This document shows positions 1,171 to 32,188 of a stretch of DNA of 32,188 nt, one piece after another; within the stretch, counting starts at the first letter, position 1, and each line of letters starts with the position of its first letter. A model generated the notes under the pieces. It did no database searches. It saw nothing but the letters and a program-made list of their open reading frames with translations, and was not told the DNA's origin. Location: positions 1 through 32,188 of IMG/VR virus record IMGVR_UViG_3300030328_000198. One strand, 5' to 3'. Origin of the DNA: a virus. The position numbers were made by a program, and so were the translations under genes.

Positions 1171-1390
1171 AGAGCTGATTAAAGTTGCTAAAGAACCTAT
1201 TGTAGATTCTGATGATGATATATCAGCTGATAGATTAAAAAATGCCGCAGCTACTAAAAAACTAGCTATATTTGACGCATTTGAAATACTTACTAGAATC
1301 CAAGAAGAAGAAAACATGCTTGAGGGAAAAGCACCTGAAGAGAGAAAGGAAAAAGTCTTTAAAGGATTCGCTGAAAGCAGATCTAAGTAA
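1115..1390 (+). CDS. Candidate terminase small subunit
   Basis: A 91-residue, mostly helical, highly charged protein directly before the large terminase gene, joined to it by a TAATG overlap. The N-terminal half (SIKETKRNIIQAGRKAVEEL) is basic and amphipathic and could contact DNA. An acidic stretch (DSDDDIS, about residues 31-37) follows, then KNAAATKKLAIFDAFEIL. Small terminase subunits are short helical proteins, poorly conserved in sequence, that recognise phage DNA and usually sit at this place. The start lies 56 bases inside the upstream gene in another frame. No better start exists without losing the N-terminal helix, which looks conserved from memory. Function is assigned mainly by position. 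Confidence 0.55.
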   Translation: MSIKETKRNIIQAGRKAVEELIKVAKEPIVDSDDDISADRLKNAAATKKLAIFDAFEILTRIQEEENMLEGKAPEERKEKVFKGFAESRSK

Positions 1391-14500: not shown

Positions 14501-17500
14501 TTGATCAATCAATGACAATACAAGCCTCTTTTAATATGAGATTTATAATGGGTCAAGGAGATGTTGGAGACAACAAACATCCAACACCTACAACGCTAGG
14601 AACATACGTTAACTCCAGCGGAACGCAAGCAACACATCAGTATAATTATTCTACTTCAAGTAGTGATTTTCCTACTAGTTGGGGTTTTGACTCTAGTAAT
14701 AGAATGGGTTATTGTGGTGGTAGACAAGAGTCAAAAGATTTTTGGGAACAAAGAGATAATTTTTGGTTTATAGACGGCGCTGGACATAAAAACACAACAC
14801 TTAATAGTGGTGGTAGTGGTTGGCATAATGCAGAGAATGGTGTTCATAGTTCACATTTAGGCGGTAAAGGACCTGGTACTGGTGGTATACGTCATTTTGC
14901 TAATTACTCAAGAATATTTTTTGGTATAAGAAGATGGTATGATTATTTAAGTACAACCCAAAGGAATTTTTATGATATAATGAGTACGCCGGGCACTATA
15001 TTTAAATTTAGAGATGATCCTACTAACGAAGGAATTGGAACGGCTTATCAAGTTATTAGAAGACGAGGATGGAGGCAAACTTATAATTATCATAGAGGTA
15101 CTGGTTGTAAAACTTGTAAAGATAGTTGGCCTAGCTGTAGGAGATTAATGTTTGCTGTCGATTTTGAAAGATTAGACCAAAGTGATGGAAATGGTGGTGC
15201 AATGGATGCTGGGGCGTGGGATCCGCTAAGTGCATATAAACACGATGGTAGTGAAAATGGTTCTGAAATAGATATTTATACTATTGATTTAGGAATGAGA
15301 GATGGGGGTAGCTCTATGTCTAGTGAAAATCCAGCTATATTTGAAACAGAACCAAAAGAAGATGTAGGTTTAGATATATATTACGAAGCATCAGGAGCGA
15401 TACCTTTAGATGTTAGAGCAAGAAATAACGAGTTATTAATACCGTATTTTTCAACATGTCAAATAATTAATTCTAGTGGTGCTTATCATAGAGATGCTAA
15501 TGGTGATATACAAACGTATCAGATATATGGTGTTAATCAACCTTCAAATAAAGATTTAACACAAATATCTATAACACCAGCATTATTAGATGATTTAGCC
15601 CACGATCAATGGATACCTATTGAGAGATATGATGGATCAAGGTTTGCTGTGTATGCGTCAAAATCATCAGGTAATTATTCCGCTGGAGATGCAACTCTTT
15701 ATGTTGTTACTGGTAAAGCACCAACTAACGAGCAAACAAATCAATACCAACCTTGGAGAGCGCCTCATCATCAACCGTTTTATTTAGGATTTCACAACTG
15801 TTGGCAATATGGTAATGGTGTAGAAACTGATAGGATTAGAGATGATTATAATGCTCCACAGCTTTCTAACGGTGTTAAAGCTTCTGCACCACTAGCAGTA
15901 CCTTACGCAGAAGAACATAGAAGTAGTGGTTTAATATGGTCGGGTATATTTAACTCAACAAGTGGTATTAATAATCTAAATCAATTTATACAAGCAGAAC
16001 CAATAACTAAAGATTTAAGTCCTCGTCACGGAACAATTCAAAAACTAGTTGGTAGAGATACTGATACTTTAGCTTTTTGTGAGGATAAAGTATTAAGATT
16101 ACTTACCGATAAAGACGCTTTATTTAATGCTGATGGAAATACTAATGTAACAGCTAGTAACGCTGTTATAGGTCAAGCAACTCCTATAAGCGGTGATTAT
16201 GGTATATCAACAAATCCAGAATCATTAGCCGTGACACCACATGGTATGTATTGGTGTGACCAAATGAGAGGGCAAGTATTAGCTTTAGAAGGTGGTATGT
16301 CTATAAAAAGTATATCTGATATTGGAATGAAAGATTACTTCAATGATAATCTACAAGATGTTTCAGAAGTTGTTGGTACTTATGATGACAAAAAGAACGA
16401 ATATAATATAACATATGGAAAGAAAAACTGGCCTCAGCAGTTTAGATCAACAAAAACTACTTTAAGTTATAGTGAACTAACTCAAGGATGGGTAAGTTTT
16501 AAATCGTTTGGACCAGAACATGGTATTAGTATGAATAATGAATATTATACTTGGGATAAAGGTAGTATGTGGCAACATCATTCAAACGCTTTAGCGAACA
16601 ACTTTTACGGATCACAATACTATTCTGATGTTACGTTAATGTTTAATGATAATCCTGCTGCTGTAAAAAGTTTTAATACTATAAACTACGAAGGTAGTCA
16701 GTCTAGAATAACACAATTTACTACAACTGATGGTTATACAGATAAAGAATATTATAATCTAGATGCTAAAGCTGGTTGGTATGTTGATACATTATCAACG
16801 AATTTACAAGAAGCTGAAAACTTAGAATTCAAAAGCAAAGAAGGAAAATGGTTTAGTACGGTAAAAGGTACTGCAACAACACTATCTAATCTTGATGAAA
16901 AAGAATTTTCTGTCCAAGGACTTGGAAGTATAGCATCGACAACCAATACCGGAACTCCAGCAAAGTTATATAATATAGAGGTACACGCACATCCTTCAAA
17001 TGCAGCTGGAACTACAAATTGGGATTCAAGTGCAGATGCTGATTTTAAAATTGGCAGTTACCAAAGTATTACTGGTGCGGCTGGAGCAACAATAGCAGCT
17101 GGTAGTTCTATTAGTTATATTGATAATTTAACCTTAACAAACGGTCTTTATACTTACTCAGGTTTAGATTTAGATGCGGCTGATTTTAGCGTTCCTGGTG
17201 GTACAGCAACAACATCTGGTGAAGGAAACGAAACGGTTTATATTTACACTGCCGCTGCTGGTTGGAGTGCAGATACTACGTTTAGTAGTGGAAGTACTGT
17301 AGCTACTACTGGTGGTGGTATTTGGAAGGTTGAATTCACAAATCAAGGAATAGCTGGTGATCCAGGTAATGTTGTTGAGGCAAAAGCATATTACAAAACA
17401 TTTACAATGCCTAGTTCACAATATAATTTACATTTTGATGTGGACAATAGCACAACTACTACTTTTGGTGGTAATGTATATAGAGAAATGTGCCTTAGAA

Positions 17501-18954
17501 CTTCTTACAATATAGATGCTGGATCAACTAATACTAGAGCTACAGTAACAGCTAATGCTATTAGTGGTATAACAAAAGCTGATAATGTCTCTTTCTTAGG
17601 TACTGGTTGGAGAACAGAACAATGGTCCGCTCAAGTTTTACAAGGTCAATCAACATTAGTTGCTGATTACACTGTTACAGCGGATAGTAATTATCATTTA
17701 GATCCTATGGGTAATGGTAAAGGTGTTGATCCTAGTTGGGTAAATAGATTAGTAAATACACCTTGGGCGCCTTACTACACTTGGACTGTTACGGACACAT
17801 ATTATACATCTACTGGTAATACAGGACTAATACAATCTTCAAGAGTAAAAATTTATTACACTCCACCTGTTGGTATTAGTGGTTTAGATCCAGATCCTAT
17901 TTCCCCTGAAGGTACTTTCTGTGCTTTTTTACACGATATAAGATTGGGTTATAATTCTTTGGCAGCTGTAACTAGAAATAGCATAGGTGATAGAATTGGA
18001 TCTTTATCTGTTAGTACGTCTAGAATTTCTCCGGGTAGTATACTACAAGTATATGCCAATGCCAATGCAGCTGGTACAGCTAGATTATATGTTGCAAAAC
18101 AAGGTACAGGGACACCTGGTGTAGCAACGCATTATTATGATTTTAACAATGATGTTTTTGACGCTGTTTCAGATGGTGTTCAATATAAGCAGTTAACTTT
18201 TGTGGCTAATACTAGTTTATCACAAGCTATTGTATTCCCAACAACAGACGAAACAGCAACATATTCTGTTTGGCTAGGTGATGATACTGGTGTAGGAACA
18301 AGTTTAGCTAGAGCTAGTAGTGTTCCAGATGCTATTAATGAATTAAACGTAGATATAGCTAGGAATGTCACAGCAACATTTACACCTGGGGCATTAACTA
18401 ACGTTACACCAGCTGGATCATTAACAATAAAAGCTGGTAAAGAAATGTCAGCGGCAAATACTGATTATGCTTTCTCATTCACTTACACTAGAACAGGATC
18501 AAGAACATTGTCAATATCAGATACAGTAATACAACCAGAAGATATTGTTGGTGCTTATGCTGAATATCCTCTTACTGCTAATGAAAATTCAGGTGTAACA
18601 ACTTTACATATAAACCCTACACAAGGAGCTAAAGTAGGTATGTATATACAAGATGGTAATCATGTTAATAATGGTGAACCAGCTACAGCAAGAATTACTA
18701 AAGGTTCTACAATTACAAGTGTTGCCACAAATGATTCTGTTGCATTTGCTGCGGCTACCAGCGCTAGTATGTCATCTGGCGAACCATTAATTATATCTAG
18801 TGATTGGGAATATGAATTAATATCATCTACAGTTAGTATAAACGGAACTAATACAATCGTAACCATAGCAGGAACAATTAGAATTAAAAAATATGGTAAA
18901 ACCACTCCAGATGGAAATATCATATTAGAACCTAGCTTTATAACAACAACATAA
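11560..18954 (+). CDS. Giant tail protein (nozzle/stabilisation type) with C-terminal beta-rich extension
   Basis: A 2464-residue protein. The N-terminus (KRDFSGAKMNKDMDERVLPP, then GQYRDANNIQIATSDGSDVG) is the signature, as I recall it, of podovirus tail-nozzle or tail-stabilisation proteins. Further blocks of this type are FPRFSYRWKYQDGEYSTFAP, the region around 1488-1600 with DYGISTNPESLAVTPHGMYW, and GWVSFKSFGPEHGISMN, which suggest a beta-propeller or beta-sheet nozzle. A cysteine cluster (C1183, C1186, C1193) lies in a basic stretch. From about residue 1720 to the end the protein is low-complexity Thr/Ser/Gly/Ala-rich and beta-like, with no recognised enzyme motif, possibly several stacked domains for receptor contact. 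At this length it is larger than T7 gp12-type nozzles, so it may combine nozzle and spike or fibre functions. It starts 10 bases after the previous gene. Confidence 0.8.
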   Translation: MAELKRDFSGAKMNKDMDERVLPPGQYRDANNIQIATSDGSDVGALQTLMGNTERTASIVPDDYCTCVGVLPLPEKDLIYYFVAGGGIKGYQPLIKRDYILEYDTITRTTKYVFVDIYSIHETQSGANSTNKYFTILDNGDATNTTGVRIGMHITGTFTNNTGGNITVRGATISNGSTYSINVEDNVVVMNVVKVTNGWKVYHDYLWDNGSSGAVLPIADGESVYFQSPFGERILQFEPLQKIHSINHLDGMIFWTDGVNEPKKIHIERSKLGTGYTYPVVGWDDDELSTHANNTGNTTAKNIPADHADNFNFHTRLVISDKDLFGYEIALNRNETQPWWVKLEHVTVIKQNPKFPLEVEMLQTSLDRTPDPTSSNAFPTPNLTYGIYCDANDGVPDDISFYDHTDPADPVLFPTDHSMTVYFDQPVDFRIGDVLLWNDEMAVLGNDWNKDDASVRTVVTSAPSGMPNNGGSVGDYGIKILSNSSSSSVARPFHCRLEDKKPMFEFKFPRFSYRWKYQDGEYSTFAPWTRVAFLPGDFDYLPKKGYNLGMTNRLRSLRLKNYFHEFELVPSDVVQVDLLYKEEGNNTIYTVKEIKRKDGDPEWPDRATSAFNRGKYNLTSEMIHAVVPSNQLLRPWDNVPRSALTQEMSSNRLIYGNYKQNYNVDKKLMLDLRWSNNYKKKSESLAEIPERSCKTLRTYQVGVVFMDDYGRESPVLVPKEGSSISLDKKWSTYTNRLVARLNWQSKVPTWAEYFKYYIKETSNEFYNLAMDRWYDAEDGNVWISFPSAERNKVDEDTYLILKNEHDSNKAVLEAGRYKIIAIENDAPTFVKTTKKSHGSVLTNVTSGATLAALTNILVDKTDTDGTSWDENIGSDWIADVYSKIAQGNLYARITATDGNTVVGSDWIGVTSLRTVGDDIAVKLDQAIGDTANQDDNLTSPTYRIEFREHMVQHKPEFDGRFFVKLHKDMLLQQAVMKELDIDQSMTIQASFNMRFIMGQGDVGDNKHPTPTTLGTYVNSSGTQATHQYNYSTSSSDFPTSWGFDSSNRMGYCGGRQESKDFWEQRDNFWFIDGAGHKNTTLNSGGSGWHNAENGVHSSHLGGKGPGTGGIRHFANYSRIFFGIRRWYDYLSTTQRNFYDIMSTPGTIFKFRDDPTNEGIGTAYQVIRRRGWRQTYNYHRGTGCKTCKDSWPSCRRLMFAVDFERLDQSDGNGGAMDAGAWDPLSAYKHDGSENGSEIDIYTIDLGMRDGGSSMSSENPAIFETEPKEDVGLDIYYEASGAIPLDVRARNNELLIPYFSTCQIINSSGAYHRDANGDIQTYQIYGVNQPSNKDLTQISITPALLDDLAHDQWIPIERYDGSRFAVYASKSSGNYSAGDATLYVVTGKAPTNEQTNQYQPWRAPHHQPFYLGFHNCWQYGNGVETDRIRDDYNAPQLSNGVKASAPLAVPYAEEHRSSGLIWSGIFNSTSGINNLNQFIQAEPITKDLSPRHGTIQKLVGRDTDTLAFCEDKVLRLLTDKDALFNADGNTNVTASNAVIGQATPISGDYGISTNPESLAVTPHGMYWCDQMRGQVLALEGGMSIKSISDIGMKDYFNDNLQDVSEVVGTYDDKKNEYNITYGKKNWPQQFRSTKTTLSYSELTQGWVSFKSFGPEHGISMNNEYYTWDKGSMWQHHSNALANNFYGSQYYSDVTLMFNDNPAAVKSFNTINYEGSQSRITQFTTTDGYTDKEYYNLDAKAGWYVDTLSTNLQEAENLEFKSKEGKWFSTVKGTATTLSNLDEKEFSVQGLGSIASTTNTGTPAKLYNIEVHAHPSNAAGTTNWDSSADADFKIGSYQSITGAAGATIAAGSSISYIDNLTLTNGLYTYSGLDLDAADFSVPGGTATTSGEGNETVYIYTAAAGWSADTTFSSGSTVATTGGGIWKVEFTNQGIAGDPGNVVEAKAYYKTFTMPSSQYNLHFDVDNSTTTTFGGNVYREMCLRTSYNIDAGSTNTRATVTANAISGITKADNVSFLGTGWRTEQWSAQVLQGQSTLVADYTVTADSNYHLDPMGNGKGVDPSWVNRLVNTPWAPYYTWTVTDTYYTSTGNTGLIQSSRVKIYYTPPVGISGLDPDPISPEGTFCAFLHDIRLGYNSLAAVTRNSIGDRIGSLSVSTSRISPGSILQVYANANAAGTARLYVAKQGTGTPGVATHYYDFNNDVFDAVSDGVQYKQLTFVANTSLSQAIVFPTTDETATYSVWLGDDTGVGTSLARASSVPDAINELNVDIARNVTATFTPGALTNVTPAGSLTIKAGKEMSAANTDYAFSFTYTRTGSRTLSISDTVIQPEDIVGAYAEYPLTANENSGVTTLHINPTQGAKVGMYIQDGNHVNNGEPATARITKGSTITSVATNDSVAFAAATSASMSSGEPLIISSDWEYELISSTVSINGTNTIVTIAGTIRIKKYGKTTPDGNIILEPSFITTT

Positions 18955-19819: not shown

Positions 19820-20500
19820 ATGAGTTTTTTAATAGCAGGAGCAGTTGTTGGTGTTGGAGCTGGTGTAGCTAAAGCTATATCTGCTGGTAAACAAAAAAAA
19901 GCTGCTAGAGCTGAGGAAGAAGCGGCAAAAGCAGAGATGCAAAGACAAAAAGATTCCTTTGCGAGCCTAGATACTAGTAATCCTTATGCAAATCTAGAAA
20001 ATAAAATGGAAGATCTTACTGTTAACCAACAGGAAGCTGAATTCATGCAACAACAACAGCAACAAAGTCAAGCAAATATAATGCAGGAAATGAGGGGTGC
20101 CGCTGGTGGATCTGGTATCGCCGCTTTAGCACAAACGCTGGCCAATCAAGGATCTTTAGATGCTCAAAAAGCTGCTATATCAATAGGTAAACAAGAACAG
20201 TCTAACCAAATGATGGAACGTCAAGCTGCTTCTCAAATACAAGATCAAGAAAGACAAGGTGAGATTATGTCTAGAGACATGGAAAGAAACAAAGTATCAA
20301 CACTACTGGGTATGGCACAGTCTGAAAAAGCTGCGGCTAGTGAAAAAGTTGCGGCTGCGGACGAAAAAATGTGGTCTGGTATTACTGGTGCTGCTGGGGC
20401 TTTGGCTGGTGGTTTTCAAGGTATACAAAAAGCAGGCGGTATAGCTGGCTTGAAAGACAATGATTATCAGAAGTGGTTATCTGAACAAGAAAACAGTTAA
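19820..20500 (+). CDS. Internal virion protein, gp14-like
   Basis: A 226-residue protein with a glycine/alanine-rich hydrophobic N-terminus (FLIAGAVVGVGAGVAKAI, about residues 4-21), followed by an alanine/glutamate/lysine coiled coil and a glutamine-rich stretch (MQQQQQQSQ). The motif AAGGSGIAALAQTLANQ (about 93-109) and the late GAAGALAGG segment are typical of T7 gp14-type ejection proteins. Those proteins travel inside the capsid and insert into the outer membrane to start the DNA channel. The order (gp14-like, a helical protein, then a giant protein) parallels T7 gp14-gp15-gp16. The assignment rests on composition, motif style and order rather than strong sequence identity. Confidence 0.7.
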   Translation: MSFLIAGAVVGVGAGVAKAISAGKQKKAARAEEEAAKAEMQRQKDSFASLDTSNPYANLENKMEDLTVNQQEAEFMQQQQQQSQANIMQEMRGAAGGSGIAALAQTLANQGSLDAQKAAISIGKQEQSNQMMERQAASQIQDQERQGEIMSRDMERNKVSTLLGMAQSEKAAASEKVAAADEKMWSGITGAAGALAGGFQGIQKAGGIAGLKDNDYQKWLSEQENS

Positions 20501-20515
20501 AATAAAAATATAATT

Positions 20516-21604
20516 ATGAGTAAAACACCATTAAAACAAGCAGATCAAACTTTAGTAAGTGGCGCGTATAGAGCGGCATCAGCCGGAACTCGTCGAGATG
20601 GCTTTTCACAAGGCATGGATGAGTTGATGAATATAGGTAAAGACATGGTTAAGGGAGCTGTTGATAGAGCCCAAGAAGCACAGCAAAAAGGAAATGAATT
20701 AGCTGAGGGTATATTAGATATAGGGGGTGGTTTAGGTACTAGCTGGCTTAAAATGGTTGAAGGAGAAGTATCTGGGTTACACGGCGATTATAAAAAAGCA
20801 GCTAAATGGGGTAAGAAAGGTAAAAAAGCTGAAGGAATGCAAAATCTAAACACTCTATCAGCTGAAGTTGCTAGTGTTAAAGATCTTAATACACAAATAG
20901 CTAAATGGCAAACCGAAGGGGATTGGAATGGTTCTTTAAGTGAAAAAGAACAAGGCGTGTTTAATGCTTTTATGAATAATAATTCTAACAAAAGAATAAC
21001 AAAAGGTCCTGATGGTGAGAGAGTTTTTGAAGTAGAAACTCCACAAGGTTGGATGAGTACTAAAGAAATAGAAAAAATGGCTGAAGAACATAAAAAAGAT
21101 TATGTTACCGCAACAAACTTAAGAAAAGATCTTTTAAAAGAAATAAACAAAGGTACTACTGATGCTTTTAGAAACGCTCAATATGGATATATAGCTCCAG
21201 ACGAAAAAGAAAGAATCTCTGCTCAAATAAATAAAACTTTAAGTAAAGGAAATTTAAAAAGTTTAATGTTTGATGATATTTTAGATACTGGCGGTTCTTT
21301 TGTTGTTGATCTTGCTAACTCTCCAATGTTAAAAGAATTAAAGTATGAAGACTTAGGTTTAGTTCCTCCTAAAAATGATGATGATGGGTTAATTAACGAA
21401 ACATTAACTGAAGATGATAGAATGAAAATAACACAAGCGTTATCGGATGATAAAAATAAAGAATTAGGATTAAAAATGATGAATGAATATGTTATGAGAT
21501 TTTATGACAAAAACTATCAAGCACAATATAAAGCAAACGGAGGTACCACGTTAGACCCAAACATGTCTAATGATGATATAATTAAACTAGCTCTTAAAGA
21601 ATAA
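20516..21604 (+). CDS. Candidate internal virion/ejection protein
   Basis: A 362-residue, mainly helical, lysine-rich protein of unknown family. An alanine/glycine-rich N-terminal region (YRAASAGTRRDGFSQGMDEL) is followed by a basic patch AAKWGKKGKKAEG (about residues 94-106). Long charged helices follow, and the C-terminal part ends in LDPNMSNDDIIKLALKE. It lies between the gp14-like gene (15 bases upstream) and the giant gene (11 bases downstream), where T7 has gp15, so an ejection-complex role is inferred. There is no signal peptide, no membrane helix and no enzyme motif. Partners could be the giant protein and the gp14-like protein. Confidence 0.6.
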   Translation: MSKTPLKQADQTLVSGAYRAASAGTRRDGFSQGMDELMNIGKDMVKGAVDRAQEAQQKGNELAEGILDIGGGLGTSWLKMVEGEVSGLHGDYKKAAKWGKKGKKAEGMQNLNTLSAEVASVKDLNTQIAKWQTEGDWNGSLSEKEQGVFNAFMNNNSNKRITKGPDGERVFEVETPQGWMSTKEIEKMAEEHKKDYVTATNLRKDLLKEINKGTTDAFRNAQYGYIAPDEKERISAQINKTLSKGNLKSLMFDDILDTGGSFVVDLANSPMLKELKYEDLGLVPPKNDDDGLINETLTEDDRMKITQALSDDKNKELGLKMMNEYVMRFYDKNYQAQYKANGGTTLDPNMSNDDIIKLALKE

Positions 21605-21615
21605 AATAAAATAAT

Positions 21616-24600
21616 ATGCAAGAAAATCAACCTTTGATACAAGACCCAAACGTTGTACAAGATCCAAACGCTGTGCAAGAGCCTGATGTTGTGCAAGAGC
21701 CTGATGTTGTGCAACAACCGGAAAGTGAATTAGAAAAAATAGTTGGATACATGAGAAAACAAAATTTCTCTATGGATCGTATTAAGAAGGTTGTAAGAGA
21801 TTATAAAAAGAAAGAAGAGTTAGAGAAAGTTGAAGCCGCAAGAATAGCTAAGCTAACTAAATCAAACGATGCTAGTGCTATTTACAAGCAACAAAAGTTA
21901 CAAAAGAAAGCTATGAACGAATGGGCTTCTTCTTTGCAACCTGGCGCAGAGTTTACAAACGATCAAGGAGTAAACTACTCTTTAAACGAAAATAACGAAT
22001 GGACATCTAATGGTGAAGTTGTCGATCAAGACGATTTCAAAACCAATCAACTCCCACAATATTATAAGCAGTTAACTACTGCAGGTGAAGTTCCAGATTT
22101 TTCTGTAATGTCGCCTGAGCTAGAGAATCTTATTAATGCTACTAAAATAACTGATGAACAATCAAATACTATAAACAAAAAAGCTAATAGTAGATTTGAT
22201 ATTTTCAACAAATTTCAAGCTACTGGTGGTCCTGATGTTAGAGATCGTCAAGCTAGAGGAGGAGTGGTAGAAGAAGAAAACCCGTTATTTGAATGGGATC
22301 AAGTTGATAATCTTGCGGATTATAAAAGTGGAGATGTGCACTATGTTTCTCCTTACGCAGAAGATCCTTCAAAAGGTATTTCTATAGAAGATGAAAGGCG
22401 ATTATACAATAGAGACAAACAAATTATTGACGCTGTAAAAACTAGAGAAGCTATTAAAAGAATTGCGAAAGAAAAAGGAATATCACCAAGCGAAGTAGAT
22501 GTAAACTCTAAAGAAGTTAAAAAATTAGCAGAATCTATTACTAATGATGATATTAGAGAAGATGCCATTAAAGCCCTTTCAGAACAAGAGAGACTTGATC
22601 AAATAGATCGTAATGTAGAGAATTTTATAGATCAAGAAGAGGGTGAAGAAGGTTTTGATACTAAATGGTGGCAAACTTTTGGTGTGCTTAAAGGTAAAGA
22701 CCAAAAAGAAGTTTCAAAAGAAATTGATAAAATATTTAGTGAGGAGGAAAAATATATTAACAAGACCACTGCTAAACAAGAGGTAATTGCTAATGAAATA
22801 GAAGATATTGACGGGGCTTTAGAGGGTTATACTACAGATTCTAAAAACATTATAGCTCAAATAGAAAAAATTCAAGGTCGTGAGTTTACTACGCAAGAAG
22901 AGGTTGATGAGGCTAATGCTGAAATACGAGGTTTACAAGATCAACTTAGAGGTATAGATTCAAATTACAATGCTATTTTAGAACGTAGAAACGATTTAGT
23001 AAAAACATCAGGAAAAATATTTGAAAACTTTCAAAATGCTTTTCCTGACGATAATCCAAATTGGGAACATTATAAAGATCTTTTAAGTAGAAATTATAGT
23101 GGTTTAGCGTATACTGGTAATGCTATGGTTGGCTGGGTTTCTAACACGGCTCAAAGTCTTGATGAGTGGATTTATAGATTTAATCCATTAAGATTGGTAA
23201 AAGATGAAAATGGAGAAATGCCTGACTGGCTTAAACCTATGAGTGGTGTTTTAGCAGTTGCAGCGCCAAGCATGGGAGGATTAATGGCTCAAGCCGCGGA
23301 AACTGAGGAAGAAAGAAAAGAAAGACATGATAACTGGAATGCTTGGCAAGAGCAGTGGTCAAGTAGGGTTCAAAAACCAAAAGCTTGGGACGAGGTTGAT
23401 GGTTGGTATGATTTTGGAGAGTGGTCTGCTGGTGTAGCTGGTAATCAAATACCTCAATTAGCTTTTATGTGGGCCACTATGGGTGCCGGTAGTGCATTAG
23501 GTTTAACTGGAACAGCGCTTAAGGTTTGGAGTGGTGCTAGTATGGCAATTCCCGCGGCTGGTGGAAAGTTTAGGGAAATGCAAGAAGAAATGGACATGTA
23601 TCCAACAACAGATGGTGATCCATTATATAGTAATCTTCAGTTGTACTCAATAGCTATGGGTACAGGTATGGTAGAAGCTTTGTCTGAACAAGTTACTTTT
23701 GGACAGTTAGACAACGCTTTAAATATCAGCGGTGCAGCAAGTGATATTTTTACTTTAGGTTTTAAACAAGCTGTTCAAAAAGGCGTGGGAAGTCAGTTAG
23801 CTAGAGTTGGTATTGATATACTTGAAGAAGGTACTTCTGAAGCTTTAGCTACTATGGGTGAAAACCTGTTAGGATGGGCAAGAGGTGGAGAACATAGAAA
23901 CAAAAGTATATGGGATGGTGTTGATGAAGCATTTGTTTCTGGTGCATTAATATCAGTAGGTATAAAAGGAATGGGTGTTGCCAAAGCTCCTACAGCTGCA
24001 TTTACCTCAAAAGATACGAATCAAAAAAGAGGAGAAATTGGTCAAAGACTTCAAAAAATAAATGATATATTAAGAAAACCAGATCTTGATAGTAATTTAA
24101 GAGATAAGTATATTGGTGAAAGAAATAAACTAATAGCACAAAGCAACAAGCTTCTTCAAAGTGATATTAAAAAAGTTGATTTATTATCTAACATGGAGAA
24201 AAAAGCTCTTATAGATATAGAAACGGATATTTTGCAACTTAGATTACAAGCTGAAAATGTAGCTAATGATAATTCTTTAACTCCAGAACAAAAAATTGAA
24301 GAAGCAAAAAAATTACAAGATCAAGTAAACGAACTTCAAAACGATAAAGAACTTATACTTGCTGAATATACAGCACAAGAAGCTGAAGAAAACTATCAAA
24401 TAGAAAAACAAAAAATTCAACAAAAAGTAGATGCTTTTAACAAAAGACAACAACAAGAAGGTGGAGAAGGTAGAACAGCTGAATTAATTGAAACTGATAC
24501 CGATTCTATAAATGAAAGCATATTAGCAGATCTTGCTGAAATAGATGCTGAAATTGCAGAGAACCAAAGAGTATTAGAAAACGTTGATCCAGATAGTGAC

Positions 24601-27600
24601 GCTGCTAGAACTGCTAGAAGTAACATTATTGAATTTAACAAAAGAAAAGCTGGTCTTGAAGGTATGAGTTCTCAGTTTGGTTATATATCTACTGATAAAG
24701 ATGGTAATTCTAAACTATATGTAAATAAAGACACTAACTTAGCAAATAATAACATTACAACACCAATGCATGAATTTTTACATCATGCTCTTTGGGCTAC
24801 TGTAAAAAGAAATCCTGCAACACAAAAAGCAATGGGTGGCGCTTTAATAGATGTTATAAATAACAACGCTAGTGAAGTTGGACAAAACTTTATAAATAAA
24901 GTTGCTGCTTATGAAGGTTCTCAACAATACGGAGAAGAGGTAATAACATCTTTATCAGAAGCGATTAAAACTGGTGATGTTAAATTTAGTGAAAATTTAT
25001 TTACAAAAATTGGAGACAAATTACGTAGATATTTTCAAAACAATTACCCTAATTCTGCTTTAGGTAAAATTAAATTTAATAAAGGTAGAGATGTATATAA
25101 CTTTATTAAAGACTTTAATGACAGTATAGAAAAAGGATATGAAAGCGCTGCTATAAATCAAGTGATAGACAAAGGAGCTATTGGTAGATTAGTTGATGGT
25201 AAAAAAGTTGATCCAGTTAAAGATCAAGGTGAAGTTTACGAATCTAAAATATATCAAGAAACAGACTTGATGTATAAAGAAAATAAAACTAGATGGGGTA
25301 ATGATAGAATAAGAAAAGGCTTGGCTGCTCAAATGGCATATGGTTTAGAAAACGATGTCATGTATAGGTTGAAAAACTTTGAAGGTATAACAGCTGAAAG
25401 ACAAGATATAGCTTTAGATTTTATTGCTGATGACAAAAGCGGGTTAACTGGTTTGATAGATGGTTTTGATCCTGTAAGAATGATAAACAAAGAAACAGGT
25501 AAACCTTATGAAAGCGTAATGGCTTATTTATTACATCGATTACCAAACGGTATGAGATTAATTGATGCTAGGTTATTAGGTTTTGTTCAAAAAAATCCTA
25601 AGTATGGAAATATTATCCAGTCAATGGAACAAGAGGGTGTTCAAGATAAAATGGAAAAACAAAACTTGACTGACACCACTACACCAGATCCTAGCGAAAA
25701 CATTATAGAGAGAGAAAGTAAAAGAATGTTTGTTAACTCTATGGTTATACCAGATGGTAAAATTGTTGAGCTTAGAGAAAATAATCAAGACACTTATAAC
25801 GAAGCATTACAAGAGGTTCAAGCTGAGTTAGATCAAGATATAAAAAATGGATTAGTTCCAAAGGGCACAGAAGTAAACTTAAATGTAGTTAATCAAAGAT
25901 TTGTGGGTAAAGTTATAGCTAACGAAGTTGCTAATGCTAAAGTTGATATAAACGGTTTAAACTATAAAAGTTTTCAAAAGCTATTAAAACAAGGTCCTTT
26001 AAAACCAGTATTGCAAATATTCGCTGATTTATATGGAGTTCCTATTGATAAACTTATAGGAGATAAAGATCTTAACCAAGTTCAAAGAGGCGCTGCTCAA
26101 AACATGTTCTTATTAAATGCTGATTCAAACCTACAAGGCTTACCAGATGGTCATACAGCGAGCGGAACAGCAACTGGAGTGCCAAGAGTATTACTAAATA
26201 TGGTTAATCCTGAGACAGGAAATACAGATTTATTGTATAAAAAAACAGCCGCAGCCAAAGCAGCGAAAACAGGAAGTACAGCTGGTTTACCTCTTCAAGT
26301 AAAACAAAAAGGTATAAACAAGTCACACGTACAAGAAAACTTAGGTATATATAGAGGGAAACCAAATAATGCTGCTAGAGGTGTAGACGGTATGCTTAGA
26401 GCTTTTGTTATACAAAATGCTATGCTAGCTTCAAATCAAGCTGTTAGACAAGATGCTTTAGTAAATTCAGAAAATCCATTTTCAGTTATAAAAGCTATTG
26501 GTGATGGTAAGTCTGATTTGTATTTTTCTAAAGTGCCTAAAATAGAAGGTGGTAATATTCAGATAAATCCTAACATTGATCAACAAAGATTGTTAGATGT
26601 GTATAATTATGTTGAAAGAAATCCAATATTTAAGACAAGTGTAGATCTTGCTGTTGAAAATACAGCTTTAGAGTTAGGAATTCCTTTGTCTGAGTTTGGC
26701 AATATAGCAGAGGTATTAAATGCTGAAATATCTAAATATAATAAACACGGAATACAAGTTGCTGATTTAGCAAAAGCTGTTAAAAAAGTAATACCAGCAT
26801 TAAGTAATTATAAAAACTGGAATGATTTTACTAATAAAAACTCAGAACTAGCGCAATATGGTCCTTATGACTTTAGTAATAAAAATCCAAATAAAGCAGA
26901 TAACATAGTTCAATATAAAGCTGATGTTTCTAATTTCTTTAAATCGTTGCCAGCGACAATGCTGACAAATAATATGTTCTTAAAAACATTTCAAAACTCA
27001 GTCCCAGGTGATGTATTTACAAAAGCAGAGCTTCAACAAATAGCAAAAGATGTTATAGCAAATAGATCTACAGATATCTCTACTGATATTGATTTTAGTA
27101 AGGTTGGTATACCTTCTCAATTAGCAGATGCTGTTGAGAAAATTGCAAATGAAAATGCAGACAATCCTCAGCGAGCAGCCCAACTAATCAACAAAAGAAT
27201 ATCAGAAGAAGGGTTTGATCAAAATGAAAACGTAAAAGCATTAAAGTCATTTTTAAAAAGCATGAATGATTTTATAAACGAACCAGGAATATCTGAGCAA
27301 GTAAAAATTAATAGGGGTAAAATGGTTTCGACTATAATGTCTCAAAATACAAACTTTAAAGGTGGTATTCTTAGAGGCGCAGCGCCACTTGTAGGAGCCT
27401 CTTTAGCAGGATCAACAACAGCTAAAACACCTGTTTCTAAAATTTCTAAAGTAGATATAGCTAGAGCTTATGGTGTTACTGGTGCTGATGCTAAAATGTT
27501 TGGTGCTATCATGACTGGCGCTAATGTTATTGGTAAAAAAGCAGATATAGCTAGAGTTCAAAAAATGGTAGACACGGCTCTTCAAAATGAAATAGATGCT

Positions 27601-30600
27601 TCTGGAGTAGATATAACTCTAGATCAATACAAAGATCAAATAAAAGAGTCTATGATGCTACCTATGCTTAAGGTTGATAAAAAAACAGGTATTACAAAAC
27701 CTGTGGATATGGTTGAGTTTCAAAGAATAAAAGAAAGACATGATGAACACATGACATCTTTATTGGCTTTCAATACTTCCAACTTTAAAAACATGATGGA
27801 CGGAACATTTGATACTAAGATAGATCAAGAAGTAAAAGATTATAACAGAACGTTATTAAACACTACTGAACAGTTAGAGATGGACGGTATAACTCTTAAC
27901 GGAGTTTCGTTAAAAACAGGTAATGTTGTTGGTCCTGACGGTCAAAGACTTAGTCCGCTTGCTAGAATACTTCAAGTACCAGGAGCTGCGAAAAACATGC
28001 TATTATTTGAGTATGCTGATACAGCTGATAAAGTTATAGCTTCTGAAATAGCTTTTGAAAAAATGAAAAGAGGAGAATTAACAGCTCCTATTGTTAATAA
28101 TGTTGAAACCGCGCTAGGAAAAAACACAGAATATTTTTCTAAAAATACAGACATAGTGTTTGATAATATTGACGCAAGAGAAGCTTTTGGTAATTTAATA
28201 TCTAAAAACACAGATCCAGTTCAATCAAAGATAGCAGCGGTTGAGTTGGTGAAAACCATGGAAAATATAAACGATATTAATGATGTTAAAAACAATTTAA
28301 TAAACGCATATCCTTTATTAAATAACGACATGACTTTGGATCAACAGTTGCAAGCTGTAGCTACAATAGATAATGCTATAATGTTTTCTAAAAAACCTAA
28401 CAACCCAACAAAAGGAATTACTATATTAGATTTTGATGATACGTTGGCTACTAGTAAATCTAAAGTTAAATTTACAAAACCAGATGGAACCAAAGGAACT
28501 TTAACCCCAGCTCAATATGCTAAACAATATCAAGACTTATTAGCAGAAGGTTATTCATTTGATTTTTCTGAGTTTAATAAAGTTATAGATGGTAAAATAG
28601 CGCCTTTATTTAACAAAGCTATGAAGCTTCAAGGTAAATTTGGTCCTAAAAACATGTTTGTATTAACAGCTAGACCTATGGAATCTGCTCCAGCGATACA
28701 TGCTTTCTTGAAAGCTAATGGCTTAAATATACCTATAGATAATATTACTGGTTTAGCTAATTCAACTGCTGAAGCAAAAGCAATGTGGATAGCTGATAAG
28801 GTTGGTGAAGGTTATAACGATATATATTTTGCTGATGACGCTTTACAGAACGTGCAGGTTGTTAAAAATGTTTTAGATCAAATGGATGTTAAGTCTAAAG
28901 TACAACAAGCTAAAACAATTTATTACAGTAAGATGTCGGATAACTTTAACGAAATACTAGAGGACGTTAAAGGTATAAGAAAAGAAACTGTATTTTCAGA
29001 TGCTAAAGCTAGAAAACGTGGTCAAAAAGCAGGAAAATGGGATTGGTTTATACCGGCTTCAGCTGAAGACTTTAAAGGTTTGTTATATAAGTTTATAGGT
29101 AAAGGTAAAAAAGGAGAAGCTCAATTACAATTTTTTAAAGATGCTTTAATGGATCCTTTTGCTAAAGCTATTAGAACATTAGATACTATAAAGCAAAGAG
29201 TAGCCACTGATCTATCAGCATTAAATAAACAGTTTAAGGGTATAAATAAGAAATTAAAACAAGAAATACCTACAGGTGATTTTACTTATGACACAGCTGT
29301 AAGAGTTTATAATTGGAACAAACTTGGTTATGATATTCCAGGTATATCTAAAACTGATTTAGCTAATTTAGTAAAAGCTGTAGAAGCTGATCCAGAACTT
29401 GCTGCTTATGCCAATGGTTTAAACAAGGTTGCTGGAGGAATCTACCCTGAACCAGGCCAATATTGGACAACAGAAACTATAGCTTCTGATCTACATAACA
29501 TGACAGAGGGTTTAAATAGAAAGGAAGCATTAGCTGAATTTATTGAAAATAGAAAACAAATATTTGGAGAGTGGGAAAATGGAAACCTTGTTGGACCAAA
29601 TATGAATAAGATAGAAGCTATATATGGTATTAAAGTTAGAGAAGCCTTAACAGATATGTTGTGGCGTATGGAAAACGGTACTAATAGAAACTTTGGTGGT
29701 AATAGATTAACAAATAGATTCGCTAATTGGGTAAACAATTCTGTTGGTGCTATCATGTTCCTTAATATGAGATCAGCTGTTTTACAGACTTTATCTACTG
29801 TTAACTTTATGAATTGGGGCTTTAACAATCCTTTAAGAGCTGCAAAAGCATTTGCTAATCAACCTCAATTTTGGAAAGATTTTGCAATGATATTTAATTC
29901 AGACATGTTAAAGTCTAGACGAGGTGGTTTAAAAACATCTGTTAGTCACGCTGAATTAGCAGAAGCCGCTTCTGGATCTAAAGGTTCACCTAAGGCTATA
30001 TTTGCTAAGTTAATAAAATTAGGTTTTACACCAACGCAAATCGCGGATAGTTTTGCTATAGCAATGGGTGGAGCTAGTTTTTATAGAAACAGATTTAATG
30101 ATTTAATAAAACAAGGTGTTTCTGAAGCAGATGCTAAAGCTCAAGCTTGGAATGAATTCCAACAAATAACTGAAGAAACTCAACAGTCTGCTAGACCTGA
30201 TATGATCTCCTCGCAACAAGCATCTCCACTTGGCAGATTGCTGCTTGCTTTCCAAAACACACCAATGCAGTACACTAGAATAATGAAAAAAGCTGCGTTG
30301 GATATTGCTAACGGTAGAGGTGATTTGAAGACTAATATATCTAAAATAATTTACTACGGAGCTGTACAAAACTTTATATTCTCCGCTTTACAAAAAGGAT
30401 TGTTTGCAATAGCATTTAGCGGTGAAGACGAAGAAGAGGAAAAACGTGATAAGAAAGCAATAAACTTAGCTAATTCAATGTTAGATTCTGTACTTAGAGG
30501 TACGGGTGTAAGTGGAGCTGTTGTTTCTACTATAAAAAACATGATAATGAAAGCTATGGAAGAAAGTGATAAGGGTTGGAATTCTGACGAAGGAAAAGTT

Positions 30601-31110
30601 ATTTTACAATTCTTAAATTTATCACCACCAGTTGGGTCAAAAGCTAGAAAACTAAATAGTGGTTTAAAAACTCTTAAGTTTAAAGGAGAGGAAATTAAAG
30701 AAATGTCAACGTTTGATATAAACAATCCTATTTGGAATAGTATTGGTCATTTTGTTTCTTTTTCAACAAACATTCCTTTAGATAGAGCTATTCAAAAAGT
30801 ACAAAATATTTCAGAAGCAAATAACCAAGATCATGAGGTTTGGCAACGAATAGCATTAATGATGGGTTGGAACACTTGGGATATTGGTATTAAAAACACA
30901 GCTGTTGAAGAAGCGTCTAAAAGAGTTGATGCTAAGAAAGAAGCAAAAAAAGAAGCTGAAAAAGAAGCTAAGAAAAAACAAAAAGAAAAAGAAAGAAAAG
31001 AAAGAGAAGCTAGAGAAGTACAATGTTCAGCTCGTACCAGAAAAGGTAAAGGACCTAGATGTAAGAATAGAACTGAAAATAAATCTGGTAGATGCTATGC
31101 TCATCAGTAA
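21616..31110 (+). CDS. Giant multi-domain internal virion (ejection) protein with zincin, HAD and Cys3-His motifs
   Basis: A 3164-residue protein, probably packed in the capsid and injected with the DNA (T7 gp16-like position; multi-domain like the 'polyvalent' phage proteins). In order: a short proline repeat at residues 9-32 or so; coiled coils (about 370-480); a tryptophan/glycine-rich, partly hydrophobic region (about 600-800) with EEGTSEAL; more coiled coil (about 800-1000); a zincin motif HEFLH (1052-1056) followed by GEEVITSLSE (E1107/E1108 as possible third ligand); a HAD phosphatase domain with DFDDT (2272-2276), VLTARP (T2351), K2388 or K2395, and ADD (D2407/D2408); then IPASAEDFKGLLYKFIGKGK and a C-terminal virion module with QSARPDMISSQQASPLGRLL (from 2857), a hydrophobic helix (about 2911-2934), and a final C3137-C3149-C3160-H3163 zinc motif. 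Which activities are real is untested. Residues 2450-3090 look widely conserved from memory. Confidence 0.8.
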   Translation: MQENQPLIQDPNVVQDPNAVQEPDVVQEPDVVQQPESELEKIVGYMRKQNFSMDRIKKVVRDYKKKEELEKVEAARIAKLTKSNDASAIYKQQKLQKKAMNEWASSLQPGAEFTNDQGVNYSLNENNEWTSNGEVVDQDDFKTNQLPQYYKQLTTAGEVPDFSVMSPELENLINATKITDEQSNTINKKANSRFDIFNKFQATGGPDVRDRQARGGVVEEENPLFEWDQVDNLADYKSGDVHYVSPYAEDPSKGISIEDERRLYNRDKQIIDAVKTREAIKRIAKEKGISPSEVDVNSKEVKKLAESITNDDIREDAIKALSEQERLDQIDRNVENFIDQEEGEEGFDTKWWQTFGVLKGKDQKEVSKEIDKIFSEEEKYINKTTAKQEVIANEIEDIDGALEGYTTDSKNIIAQIEKIQGREFTTQEEVDEANAEIRGLQDQLRGIDSNYNAILERRNDLVKTSGKIFENFQNAFPDDNPNWEHYKDLLSRNYSGLAYTGNAMVGWVSNTAQSLDEWIYRFNPLRLVKDENGEMPDWLKPMSGVLAVAAPSMGGLMAQAAETEEERKERHDNWNAWQEQWSSRVQKPKAWDEVDGWYDFGEWSAGVAGNQIPQLAFMWATMGAGSALGLTGTALKVWSGASMAIPAAGGKFREMQEEMDMYPTTDGDPLYSNLQLYSIAMGTGMVEALSEQVTFGQLDNALNISGAASDIFTLGFKQAVQKGVGSQLARVGIDILEEGTSEALATMGENLLGWARGGEHRNKSIWDGVDEAFVSGALISVGIKGMGVAKAPTAAFTSKDTNQKRGEIGQRLQKINDILRKPDLDSNLRDKYIGERNKLIAQSNKLLQSDIKKVDLLSNMEKKALIDIETDILQLRLQAENVANDNSLTPEQKIEEAKKLQDQVNELQNDKELILAEYTAQEAEENYQIEKQKIQQKVDAFNKRQQQEGGEGRTAELIETDTDSINESILADLAEIDAEIAENQRVLENVDPDSDAARTARSNIIEFNKRKAGLEGMSSQFGYISTDKDGNSKLYVNKDTNLANNNITTPMHEFLHHALWATVKRNPATQKAMGGALIDVINNNASEVGQNFINKVAAYEGSQQYGEEVITSLSEAIKTGDVKFSENLFTKIGDKLRRYFQNNYPNSALGKIKFNKGRDVYNFIKDFNDSIEKGYESAAINQVIDKGAIGRLVDGKKVDPVKDQGEVYESKIYQETDLMYKENKTRWGNDRIRKGLAAQMAYGLENDVMYRLKNFEGITAERQDIALDFIADDKSGLTGLIDGFDPVRMINKETGKPYESVMAYLLHRLPNGMRLIDARLLGFVQKNPKYGNIIQSMEQEGVQDKMEKQNLTDTTTPDPSENIIERESKRMFVNSMVIPDGKIVELRENNQDTYNEALQEVQAELDQDIKNGLVPKGTEVNLNVVNQRFVGKVIANEVANAKVDINGLNYKSFQKLLKQGPLKPVLQIFADLYGVPIDKLIGDKDLNQVQRGAAQNMFLLNADSNLQGLPDGHTASGTATGVPRVLLNMVNPETGNTDLLYKKTAAAKAAKTGSTAGLPLQVKQKGINKSHVQENLGIYRGKPNNAARGVDGMLRAFVIQNAMLASNQAVRQDALVNSENPFSVIKAIGDGKSDLYFSKVPKIEGGNIQINPNIDQQRLLDVYNYVERNPIFKTSVDLAVENTALELGIPLSEFGNIAEVLNAEISKYNKHGIQVADLAKAVKKVIPALSNYKNWNDFTNKNSELAQYGPYDFSNKNPNKADNIVQYKADVSNFFKSLPATMLTNNMFLKTFQNSVPGDVFTKAELQQIAKDVIANRSTDISTDIDFSKVGIPSQLADAVEKIANENADNPQRAAQLINKRISEEGFDQNENVKALKSFLKSMNDFINEPGISEQVKINRGKMVSTIMSQNTNFKGGILRGAAPLVGASLAGSTTAKTPVSKISKVDIARAYGVTGADAKMFGAIMTGANVIGKKADIARVQKMVDTALQNEIDASGVDITLDQYKDQIKESMMLPMLKVDKKTGITKPVDMVEFQRIKERHDEHMTSLLAFNTSNFKNMMDGTFDTKIDQEVKDYNRTLLNTTEQLEMDGITLNGVSLKTGNVVGPDGQRLSPLARILQVPGAAKNMLLFEYADTADKVIASEIAFEKMKRGELTAPIVNNVETALGKNTEYFSKNTDIVFDNIDAREAFGNLISKNTDPVQSKIAAVELVKTMENINDINDVKNNLINAYPLLNNDMTLDQQLQAVATIDNAIMFSKKPNNPTKGITILDFDDTLATSKSKVKFTKPDGTKGTLTPAQYAKQYQDLLAEGYSFDFSEFNKVIDGKIAPLFNKAMKLQGKFGPKNMFVLTARPMESAPAIHAFLKANGLNIPIDNITGLANSTAEAKAMWIADKVGEGYNDIYFADDALQNVQVVKNVLDQMDVKSKVQQAKTIYYSKMSDNFNEILEDVKGIRKETVFSDAKARKRGQKAGKWDWFIPASAEDFKGLLYKFIGKGKKGEAQLQFFKDALMDPFAKAIRTLDTIKQRVATDLSALNKQFKGINKKLKQEIPTGDFTYDTAVRVYNWNKLGYDIPGISKTDLANLVKAVEADPELAAYANGLNKVAGGIYPEPGQYWTTETIASDLHNMTEGLNRKEALAEFIENRKQIFGEWENGNLVGPNMNKIEAIYGIKVREALTDMLWRMENGTNRNFGGNRLTNRFANWVNNSVGAIMFLNMRSAVLQTLSTVNFMNWGFNNPLRAAKAFANQPQFWKDFAMIFNSDMLKSRRGGLKTSVSHAELAEAASGSKGSPKAIFAKLIKLGFTPTQIADSFAIAMGGASFYRNRFNDLIKQGVSEADAKAQAWNEFQQITEETQQSARPDMISSQQASPLGRLLLAFQNTPMQYTRIMKKAALDIANGRGDLKTNISKIIYYGAVQNFIFSALQKGLFAIAFSGEDEEEEKRDKKAINLANSMLDSVLRGTGVSGAVVSTIKNMIMKAMEESDKGWNSDEGKVILQFLNLSPPVGSKARKLNSGLKTLKFKGEEIKEMSTFDINNPIWNSIGHFVSFSTNIPLDRAIQKVQNISEANNQDHEVWQRIALMMGWNTWDIGIKNTAVEEASKRVDAKKEAKKEAEKEAKKKQKEKERKEREAREVQCSARTRKGKGPRCKNRTENKSGRCYAHQ
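21640..21711 (+). repeat. 18-base in-frame tandem repeat at the start of the giant gene
   Basis: Four consecutive 18-base units, the last two (21676-21693 and 21694-21711) identical and the first two diverged, followed by half a unit. They encode a six-residue repeat, QDPNVV/QDPNAV/QEPDVV/QEPDVV. Unit number could change by slippage without breaking the frame. Confidence 0.9.
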
Positions 31111-31140: not shown

Positions 31141-32188
31141 ATGAAAAAACTACTAACAATATTATTAATAACACTAGTTTCCTGCGCAACTCCAAAAGAT
31201 TGCTGTGCACAGGTTAATTTGAAAAAATATTTTAAATTTTCAACTTTTTACGCAGCTGCAAGTGGAGGTACGTCTATATCAGATGTTGAAACTTTTTCTG
31301 TTAATAATGGTTTGGAAACTAATACTATAAAAACACCCTTTGATTATAATTTAGCTTTAGGAATACGTAAAATAGCTAGATTTGGTTATGAAAATAGAGC
31401 TCAAACATTTTATGATGGTACGGAAGAGTCTTGGTCAGATGGTGCAAACGTGGGTAAATCACGTGGGTTAGAGTTTTTATTTGAAATAGATTATAAAAGA
31501 CAACAAGGTAATGAATATTTAGATCAGCATCACTTTATAAGATTTGTTGATGATAAGTATATATTAAAAGGTGAATATTTAGAAGATGGTTTTGCAGACA
31601 TTAAATACTTTGAAACATCAGAAAGATATAGATATAAAGTTAATGACAAATTGTCCTTTAATGCTGGGCTTGCTCAAAGGTTATCTGAGCCATATGGTTA
31701 CGATCCTTTAGCGGAATGGATGCTAAGCAATGGCAATATACATTACACTTACCTAGCACTACAAGAGGGTTACAACGTCGATGTAGCTGCTAGTGAGTAT
31801 TTTTCTCCTAATGGAGAACTCGTTGCTACAAGCAAGGAGGTTTGGGAAGAGGTTGTTATACCAGTTGTTTTAGCTGATTACACTGAAAGAAAGCGTAATG
31901 AGTTAGACTTAATGATACAGCATTCGGTTGTATTAGGTTTTGATTATTATCACTATACAAAAACTTTTTGGACACACTCTTGGGCTAATTTAATGCCTTA
32001 TCATTTAGACCAAGGAGGTGAGTTTTCTTATCATAAATTTAACAACGGACAATGGTTAGATTATAGTGGTGGTATTATATTTGGTTATAAGTATAGTAAA
32101 AGATTAGGTACTTTTATCGAGGGAAAATATAATAAATACTGGAATAGAGAATGGTATGATTTTAAATTTGGAATTAACTACATAATAC
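31141..32188 (+). CDS. Exported outer-membrane-type protein, cut by the window edge
   Basis: The frame is open from 31141 through the window edge; 349 codons are visible and the 3' end is missing. The N-terminus has a lysine start, a hydrophobic core and a lipobox LVSC (C15), so lipoprotein sorting is likely; CCAQ (21-24) is an alternative signal-peptidase site of the kind common in Bacteroidota. The mature part is rich in Tyr, Phe, Trp and Gly with alternating strands (KFSTFYAAASGGTS, SHRY-like segments such as ERYRYKV, and SGGIIFGYKYSKRLGTFIEG). It nearly ends in DFKFGINYII, like the terminal strand of outer-membrane beta-barrels. I recall homologues in uncultured marine flavobacterial phages, always downstream of the giant ejection gene. 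It could shield the host surface against superinfecting phages, alter receptors, or sit on the virion; the role is unknown. It starts 30 bases after the giant gene. Confidence 0.75.
   Translation, partial: MKKLLTILLITLVSCATPKDCCAQVNLKKYFKFSTFYAAASGGTSISDVETFSVNNGLETNTIKTPFDYNLALGIRKIARFGYENRAQTFYDGTEESWSDGANVGKSRGLEFLFEIDYKRQQGNEYLDQHHFIRFVDDKYILKGEYLEDGFADIKYFETSERYRYKVNDKLSFNAGLAQRLSEPYGYDPLAEWMLSNGNIHYTYLALQEGYNVDVAASEYFSPNGELVATSKEVWEEVVIPVVLADYTERKRNELDLMIQHSVVLGFDYYHYTKTFWTHSWANLMPYHLDQGGEFSYHKFNNGQWLDYSGGIIFGYKYSKRLGTFIEGKYNKYWNREWYDFKFGINYII

Follow-up and report, generated by a model that had tools for sequence, protein, structure and literature searches.

The window, i.e. the whole stretch of DNA analysed, is a complete virus record of 32,188 bases and probably represents a genome fragment. 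Its + strand carries a head/tail block of the podophage type, where the following genes are located: TerL (1390-3519; PHROG E-value 1e-152), portal (3521-5929), a candidate scaffold (5954-7093), a capsid-type virion protein (7119-8591), with two more head proteins after it, and a virion protein of 2464 aa (11560-18954). A tail-fibre-like protein of 150 aa is encoded, on the same strand, between the latter and an ORF of 226 aa (19820..20500), a candidate small ejection protein. An ORF of 362 aa (20516..21604), a candidate middle ejection protein, comes next, and the block is ended by a giant ORF of 3164 aa (21616..31110), a candidate ejected, internal virion protein of the polyvalent type; both lie on the + strand. 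Counterparts of the 2464-aa protein measure 1493 aa in elemo, 1551 aa in Manatee Spring and 1324 aa in phi38:1, so that it is larger by roughly 900 aa or more.

TerL of the window is 59% identical to that of the Manatee Spring podovirus and 43-44% identical to those of the Flavobacterium elemo phages, and because of these identities the phage was placed near the podoviruses of Bacteroidota. Matches in MAGs assigned to Maricaulis, Aliivibrio and Woesearchaeota, probably viral contigs in bins, were left out of the host assignment. Downstream of the giant, an ORF of 349 aa (31141-32187, + strand, running past the window end) has a signal of the lipoprotein type (LVSCATPK), and its end, EGKYNKYWNREWYDFKFGINYII, is conserved. 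It is found immediately 3' of the giant in many relatives; a Pfam search of it gave no match, and it is possibly a phage-encoded outer-membrane lipoprotein. A secreted ORF of 105-120 aa is found in other loci (close behind L002 14077, L005 17362, L006 18650, L011 14084, L012 14078, and others); it carries the conserved HFNAEWN and DGEEVARFQADLSFKM, and looks thioredoxin-like by eye.

The giant ORF had been described, from the sequence, as an uninterrupted frame coding for an ejection protein with a HEFLH zincin motif, a complete set of HAD motifs, hydrophobic segments and a Cys3-His knuckle. The frame is indeed open throughout, from an ATG start at 21616 to 31110, and HEFLH (residues 1052-1056), the HAD motifs (D2272-F-D2274-D-T2276; T2351, within LTAR; K2388; D2407-D2408) and the Cys3-His cluster (residues 3137-3163) are all present. 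The segments described as hydrophobic are only weakly so: over 19 residues, Kyte-Doolittle means peak at just 1.20-1.31 (residues 542-560, 771-789 and 2916-2934), and the protein therefore has no clear transmembrane helix. Of the three or more candidate metal/catalytic modules proposed, two candidate enzymes stand, the zincin and the HAD; the Cys3-His cluster, which occurs in 33 of 94 relatives, is not counted, its putative role being that of a structural zinc site.

Comparison of the whole protein and of seven pieces of it with Pfam produced nothing convincing; matches to UvrD_C, DNA_pol3_beta_3 and Cys_Met_Meta_PP were taken as due to chance. The LPD and MPTase models catalogued there were not matched, and a C-terminus of the LPD38 kind found no support, as Pfam gave no match to it. 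An RNA polymerase was looked for in the middle region; neither Pfam nor PHROGs gave a match for the window protein, and Pfam gave none for this region of 54 family members. No peptidoglycan hydrolase was recognised in the window protein. Sequence searches of PDB with profiles of the HAD, zincin, middle and C-terminal regions and of the 226-aa protein gave no match, and a single-protein scan with residues 1-1009 found no relatives.

Relatives of the C-terminal part, HAD included, are encoded by at least 480 stretches in an IMG/VR scan. Of these, 80 were kept, and further loci were added by other scans. Profiles delimit n4 (residues 560-900), zincin (1000-1210), m2 (1440-1660), HAD (2250-2440) and C-terminal (2440-3110), next to the stretches 1210-1440 and 1660-2245.

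The zincin-like metallopeptidase domain (residues 1015-1196; 24658..25203, + strand) has HMM matches in 80 loci. The residues H1052, E1053 and H1056 of HEFLH (24769..24783) are identical in 78 of the 80 aligned members; the two exceptions reflect gaps in the alignment, since HEFLH is present in L004, and HELLH in the neighbouring frame of L061. A glutamate corresponding to E1108 (24937..24939), the predicted third zinc ligand, is present in 80/80, while the domains as a whole are only 21-45% identical to that of the window. From composition alone, 0.008 HExxH motifs would be expected for the window protein, and a mean of 0.011 per protein among 90 long relatives; exactly one, about 1000 residues ahead of the HAD, is found in 89 of these 90, so that the motif is not a product of chance. 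In an AlphaFold model of residues 990-2185, based on 42 sequences, the zincin region shows block pLDDT values of 64-90 and the order helix, beta-hairpin, HExxH helix, Glu helix, with HEFLH on helix 60-73 and E1108 on helix 116-130 of the model. The predicted arrangement, an HExxH within a helix and a Glu on a later helix as putative third metal ligand, is that of a gluzincin. No usable match was obtained by searching PDB folds with residues 990-2185. One viral structural match was found, to the uncultured-virus protein A0A218MLT5 (E-value 1.8e-9), which looks like a family member named 'UDP-N-acetylglucosamine kinase' after another part of the protein.

The HAD-superfamily phosphatase-like domain (residues 2262-2440; 28399..28935, + strand) was found by HMM in 97 loci, a presence due to selection, as most loci were collected with a HAD-C-terminal query, whereas the presence of HExxH is not. 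Motif I (28429..28443) is conserved in 88-89 of 98 sequences, the remainder being nearly all alignment gaps; motif II, T2351 (28666..28668), in 94/98; motif III, K2388 (28777..28779), also in 94/98, with the nearby K2395 conserved too; and motif IV, D2407-D2408 (28834..28839), in 95/98. All eight positions are identical in 84 of the 98 sequences, and the exceptions are mostly alignment gaps. A second AlphaFold model, covering residues 2245-3164 (60 sequences, mean pLDDT 77), shows the strand-helix order of HADs, with the motifs at the ends of strands. By Foldseek against PDB, probabilities were 0.99 for e(P4) acid phosphatase, 0.96 for Legionella Ceg4 and 0.93 for BT-2542, with E-values above 0.1, which are not significant, for a mixed query of 920 aa; for this reason, the assignment is carried jointly by these probabilities and by the invariance of the motifs. 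In the predicted structures, neither enzyme motif lies in an unrelated helical fold: the HAD is predicted to be Rossmann-type, and the HExxH helix to follow a beta-hairpin.

Within the family, HAD domains are 43-75% identical to that of the window, and beyond it they are barely recognisable. PHROG 415, 'polynucleotide kinase', matches the HAD of 32 of 38 members across the whole domain, with a best E-value of 4.1e-7; the match of the window's own HAD is weak (1.9e-6). No Walker A-like or P-loop kinase match was found in the window protein, and motif matches in the relatives were unconvincing and chance-like. By sequence, the domain thus resembles the HADs of phage 'polynucleotide kinases', with no recognised kinase part. 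A tblastn search of 50,697 phage records with the HAD and with the C-terminal 920 aa gave no significant match, and no cultured phage with a HAD of the window type was found among them.

The n4 module (residues ~560-900; 23293..24315, + strand), a Gly/Ala-rich N-terminal virion-protein module, was identified by an iterated HMM in 24 loci. The region of about residues 1120-2250 had been thought to hold no recognised domain. It includes the C-terminal half of the zincin, to ~1200, and the m2 module, which is conserved and well predicted; for residues 1660-2245 (26593..28350, + strand), no relative was detected among about 100 loci and model confidence is mostly low. A variable stretch (residues ~1210-1440; 25243..25935, + strand) has L030 as its only detectable relative. 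The exchangeable m2 module (residues ~1440-1660; 25933..26595, + strand) is present in 36 loci, mostly 330-550 aa downstream of the zincin start. Its pLDDT is mostly above 85 over residues ~1430-1630 of the 990-2185 model, which outside zincin and m2 stays mostly below 50 to 70. The confident model, and a set of nearly invariant positions (P, G, T, L, Y, R, N and Q), mark m2 as a real domain; it has the motifs LPxGxxxxGxATG and NQxxR, and no fold match to it was found in PDB.

The region following the HAD (residues 2440-3110; 28933..30945, + strand), detected in 96 loci, is predicted by AlphaFold to be an all-helical 'chassis'; about 165 residues of it match Gundel_1 gp074, in part, with an E-value of 6.5e-10. 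After a Lys/Glu-rich linker, the protein ends with the Cys3-His cluster (31024..31104, + strand), which is DUF5763-like: the DUF5763 model (PF19067) matched one of six scanned C-terminal relatives (E-value 1.7e-4), and gave no match in the whole-record search.

The modules are regularly spaced along the family: HExxH precedes the HAD by 997 +/- 115 aa, and the HAD lies 900 +/- 68 aa from the end, with 946 +/- 344 aa for the N-terminus. Compared with its closest relatives, the window protein is 51-62% identical in the C-terminal third, and matches upstream of this part are patchy, at 26-34%. The zincin profile of the window type is unmatched in 14 of 88 complete giants, 13 of which have a different HExxH near the same place (e.g. 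SHEISHFIDD, HELLHIQN, HETGHDLF); the remaining one, L030, has no HExxH, and HHDAFH instead. On a tree of the C-terminal module, built with FastTree, the minimum number of changes is 12 for zincin type, 20 for m2, 18 for n4 and 9 for the Cys cluster; these counts are to be taken as upper-end values for exchange, since a module was scored as 'absent' when its profile had no match, and swaps may be overcounted. The nearest tree neighbours of the window mix zincin types, L005 having the window type and L003, L011 and L012 another. At the sequence level, different HExxH domains at a near-constant distance are direct evidence of zincin exchange. It may be argued that, since the slot is variable and the chemistry is nevertheless kept, protease activity matters.

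Loss of catalytic residues was also observed, HAD residues being lost in L098 and L099. Frame breaks inside the zincin of L061 (near 7187-7274) and inside the HAD of L080 (near 10120, two frames) are probably sequence errors or broken copies, and neither was tallied as a loss. The N-terminal regions of relatives contain other recognisable domains: a transglycosylase domain (SLT) in L089, above the Pfam cut-off (31.4 vs 21.3 bits), and GH108 matches in two relatives, the best with an E-value of 8e-8. LPD14 is matched in one relative.

The gene comes last in the head/tail block, preceded by a small and a medium-sized ORF, and this place recurs in the corresponding block of the Manatee Spring, elemo, Gundel_1 and Cellulophaga phages, with giants of 3859 aa in Manatee Spring, 3694 aa in elemo and 2482 aa in Gundel_1. 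With the iterated n4 profile (residues 560-900), matches were obtained to elemo gp18 (9.5e-69), Gundel gp074 (2.1e-65), phi38:1 gp101 (1.3e-30) and phi18:3 gp123 (2.5e-35; Z = 1000). In the phi18:3 record, gp120, gp121 and gp123 carry the remark 'annotation based on experimental MS/MS proteomics analysis'. Homology over ~300 residues to the MS/MS-verified gp123 thus suggests, indirectly, that the giant protein is packaged in virions. The 226-aa protein is homologous to phi18:3 gp120, also detected by MS/MS (E-value 2.9e-7), and to Gundel gp072 (2.9e-21), and its family matches the PHROGs 'virion structural protein' (1.2e-16) and 'DNA ejection protein' (4.8e-10). The profile of the 362-aa protein is present in 32 loci; no homology to phi18:3 gp121 was detected, and the two agree in position only. 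The 226-, 362- and 3164-aa proteins form a three-member cassette, with the middle one included by position. As regards the ejection protein that had been proposed, a large, multidomain virion protein of the ejection type is well supported by the gene's place, the homology to gp123, the ejection-like neighbour, the transglycosylase of L089 and the conservation of catalytic residues.

As a separate observation, a gene of the Pseudoalteromonas phage vB_Pun_Y3 annotated as ADP-ribosyltransferase (OR779980 34918-37428, H67) codes for a protein that shares 26% identity with phi19:3 gp129, the Cellulophaga giant, over residues 969-1825 of the latter.

Several known systems resemble the one described here. 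Phage polyvalent proteins (PMC5512222) are likewise very large and multidomain, with a zincin hub and exchangeable modules, and of the phage type; with a candidate zincin and a candidate HAD, predicted from conserved motifs and models, the giant would combine several unrelated catalytic domains, as they do. The main text of Iyer et al. 2017 (PMC5512222) does not contain 'phosphatase' or 'haloacid', whereas the window giant has a HAD. No catalogued LPD or MPTase could be recognised in it, because its zincin, m2 and C-terminal modules match no Pfam model. The virion RNA polymerase (vRNAP) of N4, gp50 (Schitoviridae; PMC12633501), of ~3500 aa, is packaged and ejected, contains, besides a lipid-binding N-terminal domain and a domain with HExxH, a large helical one at the C-terminus, and belongs to a three-gene cassette, gp50-51-52, with two smaller ejection proteins; its N-terminal envelope-associated part may be likened to the layout of the giant. 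Unlike gp50, the giant contains a HAD and no recognised RNA polymerase, and no PDB chain was matched by sequence.

The small-medium-giant order is also that of T7 gp14-gp15-gp16 (PMC8954989), where domains are mosaic and gp16 includes a peptidoglycan hydrolase, such as is found at the N-terminus of some relatives here, able to move between ejection proteins; there is, however, no detectable sequence homology with T7, and the two candidate enzymes are not known in gp16. In crAss001, cargo proteins reach 277 kDa, and partial unfolding during ejection has been proposed (PMC10172136). The related giants of Pachyviridae and their relatives (phi18:3 gp123, Gundel_1 gp074, elemo gp18) share gene position and residues 560-900, but lack the HAD; those of phi18:3 and phi38:1 lack HExxH as well. 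Finally, PHROG 415 'polynucleotide kinases' and class C acid phosphatase-type HADs share fold and motifs with the window HAD, which, compared with the former, has no recognised P-loop kinase and is fused within a giant virion-type protein.

Taken together, we consider it probable that the giant is a packaged, ejected mosaic polyvalent protein, the largest of its three-protein cassette, in a podophage of Bacteroidota-type hosts. Such a protein would leave the virion with the genome and enter the cell envelope or the cytoplasm. The variable N-terminus, transglycosylase-bearing in L089, would serve virion location and passage through the envelope, and the exchangeable middle would carry further modules between zincin and HAD. 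The zincin would act after delivery, either on its own chain, as proposed for the zincins of polyvalent proteins by Iyer et al. 2017 (PMC5512222), or on a host protein; self-processing is not assured, because N4 vRNAP, once purified, gave no indication of being degraded (PMC12633501). The HAD, fixed to the helical chassis, would act on phosphorylated nucleic-acid ends or nucleotides, its most likely substrates, in the entered cell. Ejection, arrival in the cytoplasm, any effect on host targets or ahead of phage gene expression, catalysis by both modules and their substrates are inferred.

A more specific form of this explanation is that the injected modules are counter-defence effectors, their exchange tracking host defences: the zincin would destroy a defence protein, and the HAD would repair or dephosphorylate nucleic-acid ends or signalling nucleotides. 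That zincin and middle modules have been replaced repeatedly while the chassis was conserved has the look of an arms race, the HAD is related to a phage polynucleotide kinase family, and polyvalent proteins have been proposed to act against restriction or CRISPR systems (PMC5512222). No module, however, matches a described anti-defence family, and neutral recombination could give the same pattern; this form is conceivable, although on balance unlikely. We regard it as improbable that the giant is mainly structural or morphogenetic, such as a portal/neck plug or a tape-measure-like organiser, its zincin and HAD being relics, or folds of a structural kind that play no part in infection. The basic virion role does need neither HExxH nor HAD, as phi18:3 gp123 and phi38:1 gp101 lack both, and losses occur in L098/L099 and L030; but catalytic residues are nearly invariant in zincins of such low identity, and the slot receives other HExxH domains, rather than being emptied. 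That the zincin is a maturation protease, acting during assembly on the giant or on further virion proteins, with the giant cleaved by the end of packaging and its modules not travelling as one chain, would agree with a gene in the head/tail block, with one protease per giant and with the processing proposed in PMC5512222, but is very improbable, given that the HExxH-containing N4 vRNAP was purified with no signs of degradation (PMC12633501) and that the phi18:3 and phi38:1 giants have no HExxH.

The reading of the giant as an ejected polyvalent protein may be extended to the whole lineage. In this extension, which is speculative and, as a whole, rather doubtful, a widespread uncultured lineage would inject a standard kit with each particle, made of an exchangeable protease and a fixed phosphatase of polynucleotide ends or nucleotides on a helical chassis. 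The protease slot would be reloaded by recombination as hosts change, and both nucleic-acid repair and the removal of a host protein would start ahead of phage gene expression.

The new features are a HAD that is fixed within the kit, a zincin slot that stays constant but is repeatedly refilled, and how large the uncultured family is; the HAD is not a described domain of polyvalent proteins, and the giant is not recognised by Pfam. Since the stretches from IMG/VR are so numerous, and the HAD and C-terminal 920 aa of the window have no significant match in the 50,697 phage records, they point to a large group of uncultured phages with an unstudied, virion-type enzyme kit. A constant zincin slot with changing occupants offers a handle on why many ejected phage proteins carry a protease, a question shared with N4, and the HAD module, if packaged, would be a phosphatase delivered with the genome.
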